From positions 372,001-436,000 of the forward strand of contig NZ_RBAM01000002.1 of the NCBI RefSeq assembly GCF_003626645.1: 64,000 nucleotides of DNA, read 5' to 3'. Positions 23,892 to 35,169 of the stretch are shown here, piece by piece; the first letter of the stretch is position 1, and each line of letters begins with the position of its first letter. The notes beneath the pieces were generated by a model. The model worked only from the letters and a program-made list of their open reading frames with translations, did not search any database and was not told the DNA's origin. Origin of the DNA: Streptomyces klenkii (GTDB taxonomy: Bacteria; Actinomycetota; Actinomycetes; Streptomycetales; Streptomycetaceae). The translations under genes and the position numbers were made by a program.

Positions 23892-26540
23892 GTGCGGAAG
23901 AAGCGGCTTGGGGGCGGCGGCGGACGGAAGCCGCGGGCCACGGCGGTGCCGGAGCGCACCGCCCGCGTACGTAACCGACTGACCGTCTCCGTCGCGGTCA
24001 TCACCCTCGCCGTGCTCGGCGCGAGCACCTTCGGCGTCCGCGAGGCGTGGCGGGACCTCACCGAGGCGCGCCGCCTGGCCGCCCTGGCGAGCGCCGACGC
24101 CTCGGCCCTCGCCCTCGCGCACTCGCTGGCCGACGAGCGCGACGCCATGGTCCAGTACGTGGCGGGGGGCCGCGCCGACTCCACCGGCGCCGGCCTCTCC
24201 GACCGCCAACGGGTCGCCGTGGACCGGCAGATCGAGGAGTTCCGGCCCGGCGCCCCGGCGCCCGTGCGCGAGCTCCTCGACGCCCTCCCGCACACCCGCC
24301 GCGAGGCCTACTCCGGCAAGGGCGACGCCCTCGCCGCCTACAACGCCTACACGCCCGCCGTGCGGGCCCTCCGCGGCCTCGCCGACACCCTCGACCGGCG
24401 CACCCGCGGCGACTCCGCCGCCCTGCCGTCCCTCGCCCGCGCCACCGAAGCGGCCTCCGCGAGCCGCGGCCTGCTCCTGGGCGCCCTGGCCGCCCAGGGC
24501 CGCAAGCCCGAGCTGGCCGCGGCGGCCCAGCGCGCCGACGCCCGTACGCAGGACGCCCTGGCCGACTTCACCCGCCTCGCGCCCCCCGCCGCCCGCGACG
24601 CCTACGCCGAGGCCGTCACCGGCCCCGAAGTCACCGAGGCCCAGAGCCTCCTCGACAAGCTCACCCGCACCCCGTCCTCCGGCGAGCTCGCCACCCGGCC
24701 CGCCGAGCCCGTCCGCACCGCCCTCACCACCCGCCTCCAGCGCATGCGCGGCGTCGAGGACACCCTCGCCGAGGCCGAGGCCCCCCGCCTGGAGGCGCTG
24801 CGCCACGAGGCCATGACGGAGCTGGAGCGGCGCGTCATGGCCGCCGCCCTGTGCCTGTTCACCGTCCTGTTCACCGGCATCTGGTCCGCCCGCTCGGTCA
24901 CCCGCCCGCTCGCCTCCGTACGGCTCGGCACCCGCCGCGTGAGCGCCGACCCGGTCACCGAGGAGCCCGTCGCCTTCAAGGGCCGCGACGACGAATTCGC
25001 CGAGACCGCCCGGGCCGTCAACCACCTCCAGGGCAAGTTCCGCCGCCAGCAGGGCCGCATCGCCGCCCTCGAAGGCGAGCGCACCCGCCTCATCGCCGCC
25101 CGCCAGGACGCCGCTGACGAACGCGACTCCCTGCGCGCCGAACAGCAGCGCCTCACCGAGCGCCTCGCCGCCCTCCCCGCCGAGCACCCCGGCGGCGAAG
25201 CCCGCGAGGTCGGCATCCTCGTCGGCCTGTCGCTGCGCACCCTCGGCCTCGTCGAGCGCCAACTGGCCGTCATCGAGGGCATGGAGGCCCACGAGGCCGA
25301 CCCGGAGCGCCTCGACACCCTCTTCAAACTCGACCACCTCGCCACCCGGATGCGCCGCAACAGCGAGAACCTGCTGGTGCTCGCCGGAGCCGAGAGCGGC
25401 ACCGGCCGCGCCGGGCCCGTGCCGCTCCTCGACGTCCTGCGGGCGGCCTCCGGCGAGATCGAGCGCTACCAGCGCGTGCGCATCCAGTCCCTGCCGCCGC
25501 ACGCCCGCCTCGCCGGCTTCGCCTCCGAGGACGTCAGCCACCTCGTCGCCGAACTGCTGGAGAACGCCACGGTGTTCTCCCCGCCCGACGCCCAGGTCCA
25601 GGTCTCCGCATGGCACCTGGAGGGCGGCGAGATCGTGCTCTGCGTCCAGGACGAGGGCATCGGCATGGACCCCGAGCGGCTCGCCGAGGCCAACGCCCTG
25701 CTCGCCGACCCCGCCCCGGCGGGGCCCCCGCCCGCCGTTCCCGACCACACCGGCCGCGCCGGCGCCGCGGGCCGCTCCGGGCGCACGGGGCAGCAGCCGC
25801 TCGGCCTCGGCCTGCACGTCGTCGCCCGGCTCGCCGCCCGGCACGGCATCCGCGTCCAGCTGCGCGAGCAGGCCACCGGCGGAGTCGCCGCCGTCGTCGT
25901 CCTGCCCGTGGGCCTGCTGCCCGCCGGCCCGCCCGCCGTCACCGGCCTCGACGGCACCCCGCCCGTCCCCGGCGCCGCGGCCGCCCCCCGGGTCCACCTC
26001 CCCGGCTCCATCGCCGAGGCCAACTCCCACACGCTGCGCGGCCGCCCCCAGCACACGCACCGGGCGCCCGGAGCCCACGCGGCCCGCCCCGCCCACGCCC
26101 AGGTGCCGCCGCCCGTCCACCCGGCCGACCCGCCGCCCGCGCCCGTCCCGGGCCCCGCCGAGACCGACGCGACGATGCAGCTCACCGCCTTCACGGAGGC
26201 GGCCGCGCCCCCGGCCCCTCCCGCCCCCGCGGCCCCCCTTTCCACGGGACGCCACGCCCGCCCGCCCGCGCCCGCCGACGGCGCGGCCCCCGGCGCCGGC
26301 CTGCCCAACGGCACCGCGCTGCCCAAGCGCACCCCCAAAGCCGTGGCCCAGCGGCCCGCCCCCCAGCGCGTGCGCCAGGGCGTCGACGCCGAAGCGCTGC
26401 GCCGCAAGCTCGCCGGCTTCCAGCGCGGCGCCGCCGACGGACGCCGCGACGCCCGGGCCGAGCTGGCCGGACGCGACACCCAACGGAACCAAGCGGGCCC
26501 GCCGGCCGACGGCGGCACCCCCGAGGAGGCACGCGGTTGA
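23892..26540 (+). CDS. cvnA: Conservon sensor kinase (CvnA type)
   Basis: This 882-residue membrane histidine-kinase-like protein is the first gene of a conservon. TM1 (LTVSVAVITLAVLGASTFG, about 30-48) is followed by an extracytoplasmic sensor of about 270 residues, TM2 (VMAAALCLFTVLFTGIW, about 317-333), HAMP, a coiled region and an ATPase domain (HLVAELLENATVFSPP, DEGIGMDPERL, GLGLHVVARLAARHG). A Pro/Ala-rich cytoplasmic tail of about 200 residues follows. Conservons couple such a sensor to a small GTPase. The start is uncertain: GTG at 23892 is the first possible in this frame but lacks a good ribosome site, while GTG at 23882 has one but is out of frame. Confidence 0.9.
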   Translation: MRKKRLGGGGGRKPRATAVPERTARVRNRLTVSVAVITLAVLGASTFGVREAWRDLTEARRLAALASADASALALAHSLADERDAMVQYVAGGRADSTGAGLSDRQRVAVDRQIEEFRPGAPAPVRELLDALPHTRREAYSGKGDALAAYNAYTPAVRALRGLADTLDRRTRGDSAALPSLARATEAASASRGLLLGALAAQGRKPELAAAAQRADARTQDALADFTRLAPPAARDAYAEAVTGPEVTEAQSLLDKLTRTPSSGELATRPAEPVRTALTTRLQRMRGVEDTLAEAEAPRLEALRHEAMTELERRVMAAALCLFTVLFTGIWSARSVTRPLASVRLGTRRVSADPVTEEPVAFKGRDDEFAETARAVNHLQGKFRRQQGRIAALEGERTRLIAARQDAADERDSLRAEQQRLTERLAALPAEHPGGEAREVGILVGLSLRTLGLVERQLAVIEGMEAHEADPERLDTLFKLDHLATRMRRNSENLLVLAGAESGTGRAGPVPLLDVLRAASGEIERYQRVRIQSLPPHARLAGFASEDVSHLVAELLENATVFSPPDAQVQVSAWHLEGGEIVLCVQDEGIGMDPERLAEANALLADPAPAGPPPAVPDHTGRAGAAGRSGRTGQQPLGLGLHVVARLAARHGIRVQLREQATGGVAAVVVLPVGLLPAGPPAVTGLDGTPPVPGAAAAPRVHLPGSIAEANSHTLRGRPQHTHRAPGAHAARPAHAQVPPPVHPADPPPAPVPGPAETDATMQLTAFTEAAAPPAPPAPAAPLSTGRHARPPAPADGAAPGAGLPNGTALPKRTPKAVAQRPAPQRVRQGVDAEALRRKLAGFQRGAADGRRDARAELAGRDTQRNQAGPPADGGTPEEARG

Positions 26541-27046
26541 CTGCATTCCCCCGGGGGGCGACCCCCGTATCCCCCGCCGGCCCCGCCGCGTACGGGCTGA
26601 GCCACGAAGCCCGCAACCTGCACTGGCTGCTGACCAACCTCGTCGAGGAGGTGCCCGGCGTGCGGTCCGTCGCCGTCGTCTCCTCCGACGGCCTGCTCCT
26701 GCTCTCCTCCGACCCCCGCCTGGTGCACCGCGGCGAGAGACCGGAAGGGCCGCGCGGCTCCACCGCCGACCTCGCCACCATCGTCGCCGGCCTGGGCAGC
26801 CTGACGACCGGCGCCGCGTGCCTCATGGACGGCGGCTTCGTCAAGCAGACCATGGTCGCCATGGACGAGGGCAGCCTGTTCGTGATGACCATCAGCGACG
26901 GCTCGCTGCTGGGCGTCCACGCCGAGCCCGACTGCGACATGAGCGTCGTCGCGTACCACATGGCGCTCTTCGTCGGCCGGGCCGGACACGTCCTCACCCC
27001 CGAACTCCGCAGGGAGCTCCGGCAGTCGGTGGAGGCGGTCGGATGA
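26537..27046 (+). CDS. cvnB: Roadblock/LC7 domain protein (CvnB type)
   Basis: This 169-residue cytoplasmic protein has the roadblock fold (NLHWLLTNLVEEVPGVRSVAVVSSDGLLLLSS, then ATIVAGLGSLTTGAACLMDGGFVKQTMVAMDEGSLFVMTISDGSLLGVHA). In conservons this protein is thought to act with the GTPase at the membrane sensor. It starts with TTG at 26537, overlapping the kinase stop as TTGA, with GAGGAGG seven bases upstream, so it is translationally coupled. Confidence 0.92.
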   Translation: MTAFPRGATPVSPAGPAAYGLSHEARNLHWLLTNLVEEVPGVRSVAVVSSDGLLLLSSDPRLVHRGERPEGPRGSTADLATIVAGLGSLTTGAACLMDGGFVKQTMVAMDEGSLFVMTISDGSLLGVHAEPDCDMSVVAYHMALFVGRAGHVLTPELRRELRQSVEAVG

Positions 27047-27432
27047 CCGCCCCCGCCGCCTGCGGCAAGCCGGCGCGCGTCCGCCCGTACTCCCTCACCG
27101 GCGGGCGCCCCCGCCGGTGCCGGCTGCTGCTCGTCGAGACCTTCGTGGCGGCCCTCGACGCGGACGGCACCGCCCCCGGCCGCGGCCCGGGGGCGGCCGG
27201 CCCCCACCCGCGGATCCCGCCCGAGGGCCGCGCCATCGTGGACCTGTGCCACCGGCTGCGGTCGGTCGCCGAGATCGCCGCGCTGCTGCGCATGCCGCTC
27301 GGCGCCGTACGGGTCCTCCTCCTCGAACTGGCCGAGCAGGGCAGGGTCCGCGTCTTCGACACCGCCCACGGCACCGGCCGGCCCGACCGCGCGCTGCTGG
27401 AAAGGGTGCAAGGTGCGCTCCGCCGACTGTGA
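27043..27432 (+). CDS. cvnC: DUF742 protein (CvnC type)
   Basis: This 129-residue protein begins VRPYSLTGGR as DUF742 proteins do and has a predicted winged-helix part (GRAIVDLCHRLRSVAEIAALLRMPLGAVRVLLLELAEQGRVRV). It overlaps the roadblock gene by 4 bases (ATGA) and the GTPase gene by about 20 bases. DUF742 proteins are always part of conservons or related multi-gene GTPase systems. A DNA-binding role is suggested by the fold but not proven. Confidence 0.92.
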   Translation: MTAPAACGKPARVRPYSLTGGRPRRCRLLLVETFVAALDADGTAPGRGPGAAGPHPRIPPEGRAIVDLCHRLRSVAEIAALLRMPLGAVRVLLLELAEQGRVRVFDTAHGTGRPDRALLERVQGALRRL

Positions 27433-28093
27433 AGAAGACCCGGAACCCCGGCACCCGGCACCGTGCGGTTCCGCGCCCCGCGCGGTCACGCTCGGTGCCG
27501 TCGCCGCCGACGACGCGCCGCGCCCCTGGCAGAGCGACCGCACCCGCGCCCCCCTCGCCACGAAGATCGTCGTGGCGGGCGGCTTCGGCGTCGGCAAGAC
27601 CACCTTCGTCGGCTCCGTCTCGGAGATCACGCCGCTGCGCACCGAGGCCCTGATGACCGCCGCCGCGCGGGACGTCGACGACGCCACCGCGACCCCCGCC
27701 AAGCGCACGACCACCGTCGCCATGGACTTCGGGCGGCTCACCCTCGACGCCGACCTCGTCCTCTACCTCTTCGGCACCCCCGGCCAGAAACGATTCTGGT
27801 TCATGTGGGACGACCTCGTGCGCGGCGCCATCGGCGCCGTCGTGCTGGCCGACACCCGGCGCCTCGCGGAGTCCTTCCCCGCCCTCGACTACTTCGAGAC
27901 CGCCGGCCTGCCCTACGTCGTGGCGGTCAACCACTTCGAGGGCGCCGACCACCACGCCCCCGAGGCCGTCCGCGAGGCGCTCGCGCTGCCGCCGCCCGTC
28001 CCGGTGGTGACCATGGACGCCCGGAAGCGGATCACGGTCGTCGACACCCTGCTGGCCCTCGTCGGCCGGGCGCTCGACACCCTGCCCGAGTGA
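27413..28093 (+). CDS. cvnD: Small GTP-binding protein (CvnD type)
   Basis: This 226-residue Ras-like GTPase has P-loop GGFGVGKTTFVGSVSE, a G2 Thr in KRTTTVAMDFG, G3 FGTPGQKRFWFMWDDLVRGA and VVAVNHFEGAD at the G4 position (usually NKxD; here NHFE). The altered G4 is typical of the conservon/Mgl-like branch. GTG at 27413 lies inside the DUF742 gene. It is the output switch of the conservon. The following gene starts ten bases downstream, so the monooxygenase is very likely in the same operon. Confidence 0.9.
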   Translation: MRSADCEEDPEPRHPAPCGSAPRAVTLGAVAADDAPRPWQSDRTRAPLATKIVVAGGFGVGKTTFVGSVSEITPLRTEALMTAAARDVDDATATPAKRTTTVAMDFGRLTLDADLVLYLFGTPGQKRFWFMWDDLVRGAIGAVVLADTRRLAESFPALDYFETAGLPYVVAVNHFEGADHHAPEAVREALALPPPVPVVTMDARKRITVVDTLLALVGRALDTLPE

Positions 28094-28103
28094 GGAGCGA
28101 CCC

Positions 28104-29369
28104 GTGCGACGGATCCTCATCGCCGGGGCCGGCCAGTCCGGCCTCCAGCTGGCCCTCGGCCTCCAGTTCCACGGCTACGACGTGACGCTGATGTCCAACC
28201 GCACGTCCGAAGAGATACGTTCCGGCCGGGTGATGTCCACCCAATGCATGTTCCCCACGGCCCTCGGCCACGAGCACGCGCTCGGCCTCGGCTTCTGGGC
28301 GGCCGACGCGCCGCGCATCGAGGGCGTCGGCGTCTCCGTCGCCGAGCCGGGGCCCGCCGGCGGCCCGCACCGGCGCGCCGTGGACTGGCTCGGCCGGCTC
28401 GGCGGCTGCGCCCAGTCCGTGGACCAGCGGCTGAAGATGTCCGGCTGGCTGGACACCTTCGCCGAGCGCGGCGGCCGCCTGGCCGTCCACGCCGCCGCGG
28501 TCTCCGACCTGGACGCCCTCGCGGCCCACTACGACCTGGTGCTCGTCGCCACCGGCAAGGGCGAGCTCGCGGAGCTCTTCGACCGCGACCCCGCCGGCTC
28601 CCCGTACGCGGTCCCGCAGCGCGCCCTGGCCGTCTCCTACGTGCACGGGCTCGGCCCGCGCCCCGAGCACCCGGACACCGAGGCGGTGCGCTGCAATTTC
28701 GTGCCCGGCGCGGGGGAGCTGTTCGTGCTGCCGACCCTCACCGTCTCCGGCCGCGCCGACGTCCTGTTCTGGGAGGCCGTCCCGGACGGGCCCCTGGACG
28801 CCTTCCAGGACCAGCCCGGCCCCGGCGAGCACCTGGCGCGGACCCTGGAGCTGATGGAGCACTACGCGCCCTGGGAGTACGCCCGGGCGACCCGCGTCGA
28901 GCTCACCGACGCCCAGGCCACCCTGGCCGGCCGCTACACCCCGGCCGTGCGCGACCCCGTCGGCCGGCTGCCCTCCGGCGGGCTCGTCCTCGGCGTCGCC
29001 GACGCGGTCGTCGCCGACGACCCCGTGACCGGGCAGGGCGCCAACTCCGCGGCCAAGTGCGCCGCCGCCTACCTCGCCGCGATCGTCCGGCACGGCGAGC
29101 GGCCCTTCGACGAGGCGTGGATGCGGGCGGCGTTCGCCGGCCACTGGGTCTCGGCCCGGCACACCACCGCCTGGACCAACGCGATGCTCGCCCCGCGCCA
29201 GCCCGCGCACGTGCGGGAGCTCCTGGACGCGGCGGGCCGCCACCAGTCCCTCGCCGACCGCATCGCCGGCGGCTACGACGACCCGGAGGACTTCGCCGAC
29301 TACTTCTACGACGCGCAGGACGCGGCGGCGTGCGTGGCGGCGCTCGGCGAAGCGGGGGAGGGCGGCTGA
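28104..29369 (+). CDS. Styrene/indole monooxygenase-like flavoprotein
   Basis: The 421-residue protein has an N-terminal FAD-binding Rossmann motif (ILIAGAGQSGLQLALGLQFHGYDVTLMSNRT), the segment VDQRLKMSGWLDTF and a C-terminal dinucleotide-site motif DPVTGQGANSAAKCAAAYLAAI. These match StyA-type two-component flavin monooxygenases, which epoxidise aryl alkenes or indole using reduced FAD from a separate reductase. No reductase gene is adjacent. GTG at 28104 follows AGGAG and lies ten bases after cvnD, where other conservons carry a cytochrome P450. It converges with the NlpC/P60 gene after a ten-base gap. Confidence 0.88.
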   Translation: MRRILIAGAGQSGLQLALGLQFHGYDVTLMSNRTSEEIRSGRVMSTQCMFPTALGHEHALGLGFWAADAPRIEGVGVSVAEPGPAGGPHRRAVDWLGRLGGCAQSVDQRLKMSGWLDTFAERGGRLAVHAAAVSDLDALAAHYDLVLVATGKGELAELFDRDPAGSPYAVPQRALAVSYVHGLGPRPEHPDTEAVRCNFVPGAGELFVLPTLTVSGRADVLFWEAVPDGPLDAFQDQPGPGEHLARTLELMEHYAPWEYARATRVELTDAQATLAGRYTPAVRDPVGRLPSGGLVLGVADAVVADDPVTGQGANSAAKCAAAYLAAIVRHGERPFDEAWMRAAFAGHWVSARHTTAWTNAMLAPRQPAHVRELLDAAGRHQSLADRIAGGYDDPEDFADYFYDAQDAAACVAALGEAGEGG

Positions 29370-30757: not shown

Positions 30758-31045
30758 TCAGGCTCCGGCTCCCGGGCGCGGCGGCTTCGTCCACGGCCAC
30801 TTCAGGCCGCGCTCCGGCCTGCGGCCCTCCGGGTCGTACACGTACTTCCAGCCCTTGTGCAGCCCCAGGCGGCGCGTCGTGCCCGCCTGGACCCGGTGGT
30901 AGACGAGGACCGTCGGCTTCCCGCCGTGCTCGTCCGGCACCGGAACCTCGTAGACCTTCGGCGGATGCCCGGTGTGCCCCAGCAGTACCGGCAGTACGCG
31001 TCCGTCCAGGGGGCCGCCCTCGAAGGGCGTATTTTCGCTTCTCAC
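30758..31045 (-). CDS. Small conserved hypothetical protein
   Basis: This 95-residue protein starts with GTG at 31045, preceded by GGAGACTGGGGGC. It reads [31 protein letters not shown], then [28 protein letters not shown], and ends Pro/Lys-rich. It looks like a small beta-rich soluble protein with a tail. No known domain is recognised. It lies 14 bases after the TetR gene on the same strand and may be co-transcribed with it. Confidence 0.65.
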
Positions 31046-31059
31046 GCCCCCAGTCTCCG

Positions 31060-31845
31060 TCAGACGCGCGCCCCGTCCGCGGACGTAGGGGAGGGGATCA
31101 GGTGCGCCGCCTCCGACACCACCGGAAGGACCTGGCGGGCCAGGCGCCCCACCGGCCCGTCCGCGCCCTCCAGGGCCAGCGCGGCGCGGGTCGCCCCGGC
31201 CGTCTGCGGGTCGCTCGCCGACGTGGCCGCCAGGAGCGCCACGAAGTGGTCGACCAGCCAGTCGCGCAGCTCGTGCACCGGGGGCTGCTTGTCCTCGTCG
31301 AGCCAGATCAGGGACGCCGCCTCCACGGCCGTGATCCACGTCCGGACCATCATGCGCAGCCGGGGTCCGGGCTCCGGCACCTGGAGGTGCTTGAGGATCT
31401 GCGCGGCGGCCGCCCGCCGCACCCCGTCCACGATCGCGCCCGTACGGGAGGTCTCGGCGACGCTGCCGCCCTGGAGCAGCGCGCTGAACCCGGCGTCGTG
31501 CTCGTCCACGAACGCCAGGTAGCGGTCCAGGGCGGCGGCCAAGCGGCCCGTGAGGGGGCCGGTCTGCGGCTCGGCGAAGCACAGCTCCAGGTCGTCGGCG
31601 GCGCTGCGCAGCGCCGTCTCGTACAGCTGGGGCTTGCCACCGGGGAAGTAGCGGTACACGAGCGGCCTCGACACCTTGGCGGCCGCCGCCACGTCGTCCA
31701 GGGAGACGTCCTCCGGCGCATGGTGCGCGAAGAGGACGAGGGCGGCGGCGATCAGCTGGGTGCGGCGTTCCTCGACGCTGAGTCTGCGGTACGCGGGGCG
31801 GGCGGACGGAGTCGGTGCTGCCGGGGCGGTTCCGCTGCCGTTCAT
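31060..31845 (-). CDS. TetR-family transcriptional regulator
   Basis: The 261-residue protein has an N-terminal HTH ([53 protein letters not shown]) and an all-helical ligand domain. It is the third gene of a possible minus-strand unit headed by the AurF-like gene, 32 bases downstream of it, and could be the local regulator of the diiron pair. The ATG at 31845 has only a weak ribosome site. Confidence 0.93.
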
Positions 31846-31877
31846 GCAGGGCAGCGTAACGGGCAGGCGGTCGCGCT

Positions 31878-32810
31878 TCAGGCCAGCAGGCCGGAGCTGC
31901 GCCACAGGCGGCGGCCCGCGCCCCGCAGCACGCCGATGTCGCCCAGGAAGCCGGTGAGCCGCTCGGCGCCCGCCTGCATCACCTCGCGCCGGTGCCCGCT
32001 CGCCCGGACCTGGGCGACGGCCTCGCGCCGGTCCAGGCCCACGTTCGTGTAGACGGCCGGGTTGACGAAGGCGACGGAGAAGACCCGGGCCGCCTCGCCG
32101 CAGCTGAGCCGGGTCAGGGACGCCTCCCAGCGCGGGCAGCCGGCCATCTGGCGGCGCAGCTCCTCGCGCGCGTACCGGACGTGGCGCGCCTCCTCCACCA
32201 CGTGGATGCGGGTCACGCCGCGCACCAGCGGCTGCACCCGCTCGTCGGGGAACGTGAGGCGCTGCATGTAGTCGAGGATCTCCTCGCCCAGCAGCGTGCA
32301 GGCGAACGAACCGGGCGTGGTGGAGACGGTCTTGAGGACGCGCGCGAGGTTGTGGTGCAGCGGGGACACGGGGTACGCGGGGGTGCTGCCGCGCTCGATC
32401 AGCCGGGCGAACATCTTCGAGTGCCGGCACTCGTCGGCGATCTCGGTGAGCGCGTAGCGGACGTGCGCGCTGGTGGCGGGCTTGTCGTAGACGTGCCGGA
32501 CCAGCAGCTGCATCAGGATGAGCTCGAACCAGATGCCGAGCGAGGCGAGCGAGGCGGCCTCGTGCCGGGAGAGCTCGATGCGCTGCTCCTCGGACATCGT
32601 GCGCCACAGGGGGGTGCCGTAGAGGGAGAGCAGCTCGGGCGGCCAGAACCACTTGCCGTCCACCAGGGGCGCGTCCCAGTCGAGTTCCGTGTCCGGGTCG
32701 AAGGAGTGTCTGGCGGAGGACTCCAGCAGGCGGAGGGCGACCTGTTCGCGGTCCTTGAGCGGACCGAGGGCGTCCCGAAGCTGGCTGACTACAGGGTTAC
32801 TTGGGGTCAC
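31878..32810 (-). CDS. AurF-like diiron oxygenase
   Basis: This 310-residue protein matches the p-aminobenzoate N-oxygenase AurF family in length and ligands: Glu residues in helical segments ([19 protein letters not shown]), [10 protein letters not shown] and, in the second pair, [11 protein letters not shown] and [15 protein letters not shown], giving the repeated ExxH sites of a diiron centre. AurF-type enzymes oxidise amines or other small molecules with O2. GTG at 32810 has only AAGGA very close by, so the start is less certain. A 60-bp block of 12-bp repeats begins 33 bases upstream, followed by a second diiron gene in the opposite direction. Confidence 0.85.
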
Positions 32811-32843
32811 ATCCTTATGAGACTGCCTGTCAGTAAGCGCGTC

Positions 32844-32903
32844 AATCCTTCCGGTAGTCCTTTCGGGAGTCCTTGCGGGAGTCGCTCCGGGCGTCCTTTC
32901 GGG
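32844..32903. repeat. Five 12-bp tandem repeats between divergent diiron genes
   Basis: Units at 32844, 32856, 32868, 32880 and 32892 share consensus AGTCCTTTCGGG, with one to four changes each. They fill the centre of the divergent promoter region. A related but weaker series occurs at 34248. Confidence 0.9.
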
Positions 32904-33007
32904 TGAGTTGGTGAAGGATCATTGACCCGGCGGTAACCGGCGTGTGAGCCTGCCAATGGGACCGGTGGTACCGGCCCGGTGGTACCGGCAGGGGACGGGA
33001 GACGCCG

Positions 33008-34210
33008 ATGGCGACGCGCAACCTCTACGCACATGACCCGGGCGACCAGGGATGGACGGTGCCGGCGACGGGCGCGGCCCGCTTCAGCTGGGAGTACGGC
33101 GAGGGCCGCGAGGACGGCTCGGGCCGGGACCGGCTGCTCGCGCTCTACCAGAAGGGCAAGGACAAGCAGTGGGATGCGCAGAAGCGCATCGACTGGTCCC
33201 TGCCCGTCGACCCGTACGACCCGATCGGCGAGCCCGAAGAGTCCAGCCCGCTCTTCGGCACCCCGTACTGGGACCGGATGGGCGAGAAGGACAAGGGCGA
33301 GCTGCGGCACATGTACGCGGCCTGGCAGTTCAGCCAGTTCCTCCACGGCGAGCAGGGCGCGATGGTCTGCGCGGCCCGCATCGTGGAGTCCGTGCCGGAC
33401 CTGGACGCCAAGTTCTACTCCGCCACCCAGGTGATGGACGAGGCCCGCCACGCCGAGCTCTACGGCCGCTTCCTCCGCGAGAAGGTCGGCCTGCTCTACC
33501 CTATCGACGACAATCTCCAGTCGCTGCTGGGCGACACCCTGCGCGACTCCCGCTGGGACATGCCGTACCTCGGTATGCAGGTGCTCATCGAGGGCCTGGC
33601 CCTCGCCGCCTTCGGCATGCTGCGCGACGTCACGGACAAGCCGCTGCCGAAGCAGATCCTCGCCTACGTCATGCAGGACGAGGCCCGGCACGTCGCCTTC
33701 GGCCGCATGGCGCTGCGCGACTACTACCGGCAGCTGTCGCGCGCCGAGCTGCGCGAGCGCGAGGAGTTCGTCATCGAGGGCTGCTACCTGATGCGCGACC
33801 GGCTCCGGGGCGAGGTGGTGCTCACCGACTTCGGCATCCCCTACGACGAGGCGATACGGCTGAGCGAAGACTCCGAATACGTGCGGATCTTCCGCAAGTT
33901 GCTGTTCTCGCGCATCGTGCCGTGCGTCAAGGACATCGGGCTGTGGGGCGAGCGGCTGCAGCGCGCGTACGTCGACATGGGCGTGCTGGAGCTGGGAGAC
34001 GCGAGCCTGGACCTGCTGATGGCGCAGGACGAGGAGGTCGCCGAGAAGCTGGACGCGCAGCGCTTCGCGGCGGAGGAGGCCGCGAGGAAGGGCGAGGTCG
34101 CGGAGGCGATCGCTGCGGGTGCGGGGGAGGCTGCCGGCGTGGCCGGCGGGGGAGGGGCTTCCGGGACGGGTGAGGCTCCCGGAGCGGCTGCCGGACCGCA
34201 GGAAGTGTGA
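33008..34210 (+). CDS. Ferritin-like diiron protein
   Basis: This 400-residue helical protein carries two canonical diiron half-sites, MDEARHAELYGRF and MQDEARHVAFGRM, each with Glu/His ligands. Additional Glu in HGEQGAMVCAARIVE and IEGLALAAFGM complete a ribonucleotide-reductase-R2/AurF-like four-helix bundle. About 60 C-terminal residues are Ala/Gly-rich and probably disordered. No Tyr-radical partner or RNR large subunit is adjacent, so an oxygenase or oxidase role is more likely than nucleotide reduction. It is divergent from the AurF-like gene across the 12-bp repeats. The ATG follows GGGGACGGGAGACGCCG. Confidence 0.86.
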   Translation: MATRNLYAHDPGDQGWTVPATGAARFSWEYGEGREDGSGRDRLLALYQKGKDKQWDAQKRIDWSLPVDPYDPIGEPEESSPLFGTPYWDRMGEKDKGELRHMYAAWQFSQFLHGEQGAMVCAARIVESVPDLDAKFYSATQVMDEARHAELYGRFLREKVGLLYPIDDNLQSLLGDTLRDSRWDMPYLGMQVLIEGLALAAFGMLRDVTDKPLPKQILAYVMQDEARHVAFGRMALRDYYRQLSRAELREREEFVIEGCYLMRDRLRGEVVLTDFGIPYDEAIRLSEDSEYVRIFRKLLFSRIVPCVKDIGLWGERLQRAYVDMGVLELGDASLDLLMAQDEEVAEKLDAQRFAAEEAARKGEVAEAIAAGAGEAAGVAGGGGASGTGEAPGAAAGPQEV

Positions 34211-34247
34211 GTCTCCGCAAGGGACTTGCAAGCCTTGAGGGTTGATG

Positions 34248-34283
34248 TCCTTCTTCGAACCCTCTTGGGAACCTTCCTTTCGG
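34248..34283. repeat. Three degenerate 12-bp units upstream of the deacetylase
   Basis: Units beginning 34248, 34260 and 34272 (TCCTTCTTCGAA, CCCTCTTGGGAA, CCTTCCTTTCGG) repeat with 12-bp period and resemble the units at 32844. They sit between the ferritin-like and deacetylase genes. Confidence 0.5.
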
Positions 34284-34323
34284 TATGGACGTCTTCGGGT
34301 GCACACCGAGGGAGGGGACGCTC

Positions 34324-35169
34324 ATGGCACGACCGGCCGCTCGGAGGAATCGACGTCTCGTCATCGCGACGGCTTCGGCCGTGGCGCTCTACGCCACGAT
34401 ATCCGGATGCGTGGCCATGGCCACGGAGGGCTCGGGGTCGAGTGCGGGCCCGAGCAACAGTGCGGGCAGCGGCGGCAGTTCCGCCGACGGGGACAAGGGG
34501 AGGTCTCCGGGGTCTCCCGGGGCGGGGCCCTCGGCCCCGGCCTCGGCGGGGCCGCCCGCCCGGGTGTCGGCCGAGATCACGCACGAGAGCGAGGACCCGG
34601 GAAAAACGGTCAACCTGACCATCGACGACGGGCCCGACCCCGGCTGGACGGTGAAGGTCCTCGCCCTGCTCGCGAAGTACGACGCGAAGGCGACGTTCTG
34701 CATCATCGGGTCGCGGGCCCAGGAGTACCCCGACCTCGTGAAGAAGGTCACCGCGGCCGGCCACCGGCTGTGCGACCACTCCGTCGACCACAACACCGCC
34801 ATGGACAAGCGCGCCGAGTCCTACCAGGAAGGGCAGGTCCTCGACGCCCAGAAGATGATCGAGAACGCGGCGGGGGAGGGCGCCCGGGTGAGCTACTACC
34901 GGGCGCCGGGCGGAGCGTTCACCCCGTACAGCCGAGAGGTCGCCGCGTCGCACGGCATGCGGCCGCTCGGCTGGAACGTCGACACCCGCGACTGGCAGAA
35001 CCCCGGCGCCGACCGCATCGTCGAGACGGTGAAGAAGGGCATGAAGGAGGGCCCGACGGTGCTCTTCCACGACGGTGGCGGCAACCGCGGGCAGACGGTG
35101 GCGGCGCTGGAGAGGCTGCTGCCGTGGTTCAAGGAGCAGGGATACACGTTCAGCTACCCGAAGATCTGA
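34324..35169 (+). CDS. Lipoprotein polysaccharide deacetylase (NodB fold, CE4)
   Basis: The 281-residue protein has an N-terminal lipobox, ATISGC with Cys27, so it should be lipid-anchored outside the membrane. A Ser/Gly/Pro-rich linker follows (about 30-90), then a NodB domain with the CE4 motifs: LTIDDGPDPG (catalytic Asp pair), HSVDHNTAM (metal-binding His), YYRAPGGAF, and later VDTRDWQNPG and VLFHDGGGNR. These enzymes remove N-acetyl groups from peptidoglycan or other glycans. ATG at 34324 follows GGGAGGGGACGCTC; a longer start at 34285 has no ribosome site. Confidence 0.93.
   Translation: MARPAARRNRRLVIATASAVALYATISGCVAMATEGSGSSAGPSNSAGSGGSSADGDKGRSPGSPGAGPSAPASAGPPARVSAEITHESEDPGKTVNLTIDDGPDPGWTVKVLALLAKYDAKATFCIIGSRAQEYPDLVKKVTAAGHRLCDHSVDHNTAMDKRAESYQEGQVLDAQKMIENAAGEGARVSYYRAPGGAFTPYSREVAASHGMRPLGWNVDTRDWQNPGADRIVETVKKGMKEGPTVLFHDGGGNRGQTVAALERLLPWFKEQGYTFSYPKI

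Follow-up and report, generated by a model that had tools for sequence, protein, structure and literature searches.

The locus described here lies in a 64,000-bp stretch of Streptomyces klenkii DNA (the window), which is part of contig C2 (NZ_RBAM01000002.1) of an 8.23-Mb assembly. Two genes for ferritin-like dimetal proteins, an AurF-family protein of 310 amino acids (aa) and a second protein of 400 aa, are transcribed divergently from a spacer with a tandem array of 12-bp repeats. Transcription on the minus strand runs from the AurF gene through a TetR gene to a gene for a 95-aa protein. A preliminary description of this DNA had presented the two diiron genes and the TetR gene together with the repeats, which it proposed as the site of the regulator. 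Our comparison with related genomes indicates that the gene set is real and conserved; it does not support the function proposed for the repeats. The genes and elements of the locus are:

31878-32810, minus strand: AurF-family gene, 310 aa (PF11583).
33008-34210, plus strand: gene for the second ferritin-like dimetal protein, 400 aa, divergent from the AurF gene (PF11583).
31063-31845, minus strand: TetR gene, 261 aa, following the AurF gene in the same direction (PF00440, PF21943).
30758-31045, minus strand: gene for the 95-aa protein, after the TetR gene (conserved in tblastn searches).
32846-32903, plus strand: 12-bp tandem array, 4.8 copies with 78% matches, between two -35-like boxes.
32814-32837, minus strand: element E1, CTTATGAGACTGCYTGTCAGYAAG on the plus strand, a candidate operator that covers the presumed promoter of the AurF gene (79/82 regions).
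32841-32845, minus strand: GTCAA, the reverse complement of TTGAC; presumed AurF -35 box (invariant in 79/79 recognised regions).
32795-32810, no strand assigned: element E2, GGTTAC(C/T)-N3-GGTCAC, an imperfect inverted repeat; second candidate operator (53/80 regions).
32922-32951, plus strand: presumed promoter of the 400-aa diiron gene, TTGACC ... GTGTGAGCCT (40/59 regions with the gene).

The assignment of the 310-aa protein to the AurF family, made already in the preliminary description, was borne out by its match to Pfam family PF11583 (E 6.5e-96, 321.2 bits against a cut-off of 29.6). Its predicted metal ligands are E96, E127, H130, E176 (or E177), H203, E207 and H210, all of them, and E177 too, invariant in 14 diverse homologues. 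The choice of E176 is backed by a 27-residue spacing to the third histidine, as in Dob3, and by the alignment with AurF, whereas the MAFFT alignment (A1) pairs E177 instead. According to one paper, ferritin-like diiron oxidases (FDO) share six residues, and N-oxygenases are characterised by an extra histidine (PMC13061610); the 310-aa protein has the six FDO ligands and the seventh histidine. An AlphaFold2 model (31 sequences, pLDDT 84.4) predicts an AurF-type fold, with CmlI (Z 23.1) and AurF (Z 21.6) as best matches in the PDB and the next family at 17.5. A phmmer search of either diiron protein against solved structures gave no match at 0.001. Judged from its sequence, the 310-aa protein is an AurF/CmlI-type ferritin-like dimetal protein. 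The seventh ligand, its third histidine, marks it as N-oxygenase type, and N-oxygenation of an amine-like substrate is most likely its chemistry.

The larger gene, which had also been correctly picked out as encoding a divergent ferritin-like diiron protein, gives a PF11583 match of E 7e-15. Both diiron proteins are paralogues with about 25% identity, and an unrooted tree of 51 homologues separates them by a fully supported branch, for which the program warns of long branches meeting. The predicted ligands of the 400-aa protein (E115, E145, H148, E195, E225 and H228) follow the pattern E, ExxH, E, ExxH and are invariant in alignments A1 and A5, and V221 occupies the column of the seventh histidine, unlike in AurF-type N-oxygenases. 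By these residues the protein is classed as a distant AurF relative, a six-ligand ferritin-like dimetal oxidase without the extra histidine. Its structural model is of low quality (pLDDT 66.8), and the N-terminal and C-terminal parts are modelled with low confidence. The top structural matches, namely ribonucleotide reductase (RNR) R2, phenol hydroxylase, AurF, CmlI, R2-like ligand-binding oxidase (R2lox) and deformylating oxygenases, do not discriminate because all of them fall between Z 16 and 17.6. In a profile search the protein matches R2lox (E 1.4e-6) and aldehyde decarbonylases (about E 3e-4); since a designed helix bundle scores 1.3e-5, these E-values are soft and the matches serve as leads only. 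The score against the NCBIfam R2lox equivalog is 23.6 bits, compared with a cut-off of 194. An identity as R2lox or RNR was considered and rejected, the model being of low confidence and the top structural matches being tied.

The TetR gene was found where the preliminary description had placed it, downstream of the AurF gene. Its product carries a TetR_N domain (PF00440, 43.9 bits against a cut-off of 24) and matches PF21943 too. The closest solved chain is 2qib, which we take to be from S. coelicolor (E 5.4e-62, aligned over 223 residues). FasR is the best NCBIfam match (50.6 bits, E 2e-13), and two relatives of the TetR protein reach 73-81 bits with the same profile.

Sequence comparison supplied the gene content, ligand residues, conservation, spacing and repeat variability of the locus. 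We used 37 same-genus genomes, the window's own genome included, and 80 named Streptomyces loci, which are the best of at least 580 matches and are all Streptomyces or so titled except for one 'Actinobacteria bacterium'; counts from both sets are not independent because the sets partly overlap. Genes in the context maps were called with a simple codon-position script, not a standard gene finder. An AurF orthologue is present in 35 of the 37 genomes. Partner orthologues with at least 74% identity occur in 28, and all 28 are divergent from and adjacent to the AurF gene; in one genome, G006, an additional partner homologue of 56% identity is located away from AurF (L080). Among the named loci, the partner is adjacent to AurF in 57 of the 79 testable ones, absent from 22 and untestable in one. 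The co-conservation that the preliminary description proposed checking for the diiron pair was thus observed. The TetR gene follows AurF in the same direction in 72 of the 80 loci (4 untestable) and lies within 5 kb of it in 74 of 76 testable ones. A tblastn match to the 95-aa gene, which was not part of the preliminary description, was found in 75 of the 80 loci (3 untestable, 2 lacking), and the gene is present in all 20 wide Streptomyces contexts; its product has no Pfam or NCBIfam match at 0.001. Because the TetR linkage is nearly universal and the partner is absent from 22 of 79 testable loci, AurF and TetR appear as the steadier core of the locus, with the second diiron gene as an optional member.

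The linkage recurs at further AurF genes, either beyond the genus or at additional copies, and there TetR is divergent from AurF (L064, L066, L068, L071, L105 and L121). In three of these loci (L066, L068, L071) the two genes lie beside genes for a DUF4873 flavin monooxygenase, an alpha/beta hydrolase and a short-chain dehydrogenase, identified by Pfam in L068 and by clustering in the others. DUF4873, alone or with a flavin monooxygenase domain, neighbours AurF homologues in L104, L105, L119 and L120 as well as in these three. A separate AurF subgroup, found in same-genus genomes and family f6, adjoins a fused ferredoxin-NAD(P)H reductase in 11 of 20 loci (L106-L109, L111-L115, L117 and L118; by clustering, with Pfam on L111 and L117), and this fusion is a plausible electron donor for the subgroup.

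Two candidate operators, E1 and E2, were recognised at the presumed AurF promoter. E1, which reads CTTATGAGACTGCYTGTCAGCAAG, then about three less conserved bases and then GTCAA, was recognised in 79 of 82 regions. The remaining three are incomplete (L204), carry a one-base insertion (L226) or have a degraded E1 (L212); this last locus has no TetR orthologue (best match 48%). A search for the strict form of E1 in 61 genomes gave a single match in each of 26, every time at this locus, while the reversed control pattern gave 0 matches. E2 (GGTTACC-N3-GGTCAC), on the AurF side, is present with at most two mismatches in 53 of 80 regions, compared with 0.3% of 1600 base shuffles. GTTAC/GTAAC repeats are also seen upstream of AurF in L064, L066, L068, L071, L104 and L105, and not clearly in L072, L119, L120 and L121. 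E1 is favoured as TetR site because it is unique and invariant, and E2 because these repeats recur upstream of other AurF genes. E2 also seems to resemble the BldD half-sites TNAC-N5-GTNA; no paper treating BldD together with an N-oxygenase was found in the open-licence literature. The GTG start of AurF overlaps E2, directly after E1 (32795-32813), and the AurF mRNA may be leaderless in the window species.

The presumed partner promoter follows its gene: when up to two mismatches are allowed, it was recognised in 40 of the 59 regions that have the gene and in 1 of the 22 that lack it (Fisher p 1.5e-7). Its TTGACC would stand back to back with GTCAA as the putative AurF -35 box. Both boxes were recognised in 42 of the 59 regions with the partner, and they are 18 bp apart in 31 of them and 28-29 bp apart in six; spacings of 10, 41, 52 and 53 bp and the 76 bp of the window were found in one region each. 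A possible helical phasing across the different gap lengths (18, 28-29, 41, 52-53, 76 bp) was considered and dropped.

The 12-bp array reported between the diiron genes is present, and none of 2000 sequences simulated from a first-order Markov model of the intergenic region scored as high. Within the window, the highest 5x12 score is shared between this array and a 12/24-bp tandem array at about 2281-2349. A weaker set of the same unit, said to follow the 400-aa gene, did not hold up: the interval 34190-34330 contains two scattered matches to the unit at up to three mismatches (0.14 expected from the window density), one on the opposite strand and none in tandem register. In the sister genome G407 (AurF 97%, partner 87% and 171 aa of TetR 99% identical) the array is shorter by exactly 48 bp, that is, by four units. 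The intergenic query was matched in 305 of 392 Streptomyces genomes; among the matches listed, nearly all cover query positions of about 15-75, which contain the promoter elements and end at the array start, and only G407 is matched end to end. A scan for 4x12 arrays in 80 other regions (L204, an incomplete region, was left out) found only L206 to equal the 43/48 of the window, the next best being 37 and the median 32. L206 has an independent 12-bp array of an unrelated unit upstream of AurF, at a locus without the partner gene, as if the spacer were slippage-prone. The comparison across genomes classes the array as a lineage-specific, recent local slippage expansion. It would be incidental, yet placed where promoter coupling could change, since it widens to 76 bp a gap between promoters that are normally very close (18 bp).

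We favour, tentatively and at slightly less than an even chance, the reading that this is an oxidation locus widespread in Streptomyces and controlled by its own TetR, in which the lead enzyme is of N-oxygenase type, the second oxidase is optional and the array arose by slippage. Metal content, N-oxygenation, promoter roles, TetR binding and effector class are what we infer for it, as follows. The AurF-type enzyme would use a Glu/His dimetal centre and O2 for the oxidation of a small, probably nitrogenous substrate. TetR would most likely repress the AurF, TetR and 95-aa genes from the AurF promoter site (E1 and/or E2) and release the DNA on binding an effector, which its distant FasR-type similarity suggests to be hydrophobic. 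The six-ligand enzyme would contribute an accessory oxidation and be dispensable, because many species lack both it and its promoter. One protein-DNA complex could affect both promoters because the -35 boxes stand back to back, usually 18 bp apart, and slippage expansion of the array would have moved the promoters apart.

Several observations weigh against this oxidation locus as outlined. The 310-aa protein has 14-16% identity to AurF and CmlI over the aligned core in structural alignments, and its sequence profile meets AurF among solved structures only at E 0.06; we relied on the fold comparison for the latter reason, and both values mean that the activity of AurF or CmlI is not transferable to the protein. 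TetR does not pass the FasR cut-off (50.6 against 330 bits). Its gene is close by but differently oriented in L154 and L186, and in L226 a TetR of 75% identity is about 30 kb away with E1 kept; because these three loci keep E1 with TetR displaced, the joint loss of TetR and E1 rests on a single genome, that of L212. E1 is a weak palindrome (central GAC-N5-GTC), whereas most TetR sites are strong palindromes, and it was not found at ten AurF regions inspected outside this locus. E2 is weak in or absent from 27 of 80 regions, and its exact form is less specific: of its 24 matches, spread over 21 of 61 genomes, 8 fall at the locus and 16 elsewhere, compared with 2 for the control pattern.

The main rival is a lipid or hydrocarbon oxidation, in which fatty acyl or aldehyde substrates would be oxidised by both enzymes, working like R2lox or aldehyde-deformylating oxygenases, and a FasR-like TetR would sense acyl-CoA. 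FasR is described as a long-chain acyl-CoA sensor (PMC7382501), and the best NCBIfam match of TetR, the R2lox and decarbonylase hits of the partner profile and the flavin monooxygenase, hydrolase and dehydrogenase genes in L066, L068 and L071 all point in this direction. However, the FasR match is far under its cut-off, the designed helix bundle scores in the same range of the same profile search, the AurF-type protein has the third histidine of N-oxygenases, and such neighbours were not seen at 20 Streptomyces contexts. We regard this explanation as unlikely, though deserving of serious attention.

A similarly unlikely explanation is that two independent enzymes have only the divergent promoter region in common and no joint pathway. 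This would agree with the 22 testable loci that have AurF without the partner, with family f3, where homologues of the two diiron genes are at separate loci, and with distant partner homologues beside AMP-ligase genes in L081 and L082. The adjacency of all 28 partner orthologues to AurF and the constant distance of 18 bp between the boxes in 31 of the 42 regions measured argue against it. A dedicated two-step O2-dependent pathway present in most Streptomyces outside recognised biosynthetic clusters, in which both enzymes act sequentially on one endogenous or environmental nitrogen compound under their own TetR and a conserved divergent promoter, seems to us rather improbable; if true, it would yield an N-oxygenated metabolite or detoxification product that occurs genus-wide and has so far escaped discovery. 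Least credible by far is the model of the preliminary description, TetR binding to the five 12-bp repeats as a dedicated regulatory array: although the array does exist and is flanked by the two presumed promoters, it was seen only in the window species, has four units fewer in the sister species, is matched in score among 80 other regions only by an unrelated unit at a locus without the partner gene and has no second copy after the partner gene, and we rejected the repeats as operator on this comparison across regions and on the four-unit difference.

As far as the accessible parts of the papers go, characterised AurF-type enzymes come from antibiotic or other specialised pathways. A more general oxidation step is suggested by the present AurF copy, which is common across Streptomyces (35/37 genomes), goes with a TetR gene and at many loci is accompanied by a second dimetal oxidase read from a presumed back-to-back promoter. 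No description of a general AurF-type step of this sort, and no literature on this locus, was found in open-licence papers among the matches listed. Since the promoter element is single-copy and strongly conserved, the question of regulator and effector is directly testable.

In the neighbourhood of the locus, positions 23946-29369 contain a conservon-like operon with a NIT/HAMP/HATPase kinase, a roadblock protein, a DUF742 protein and a GTPase-like ATP_bind_1 protein. A styrene-monooxygenase-like flavoprotein gene (28104-29369) follows 10 bp after it, a linkage seen in 18 of 20 Streptomyces contexts; typical fifth conservon genes encode P450 and GAF proteins, according to a recent paper (PMC13343842).

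Compared with known systems, the 400-aa protein has the six-ligand Glu/His set of R2-like ligand-binding oxidases and aldehyde-deformylating oxygenases and a weak profile similarity to them, but it is longer and its R2lox family score is below the cut-off. The locus regulator has the TetR family in common with FasR and stays below the FasR cut-off. The structurally known 2qib is likewise a TetR family member and looks like a paralogue, as orthologues from the locus are 60-85% identical and 2qib is visibly less so. Dob3, an AurF-like hydrazone oxidase, resembles the 310-aa protein in its six ligands plus a seventh histidine; unlike the 310-aa gene, it sits in a natural-product cluster, and it is 47% identical to CmlI, as stated in its report (PMC13061610). 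Unlike for AurF and CmlI, the neighbouring genes examined between 22.9 and 44.0 kb showed no biosynthetic cluster, in agreement with the preliminary description. With AurF (p-aminobenzoate N-oxygenase) and CmlI (chloramphenicol arylamine oxygenase) themselves, the 310-aa protein has the predicted fold, the seven-ligand pattern with the third histidine and the Pfam family in common, and it differs from both in its core identity of 14-16%, its genus-wide spread and its linkage to TetR.

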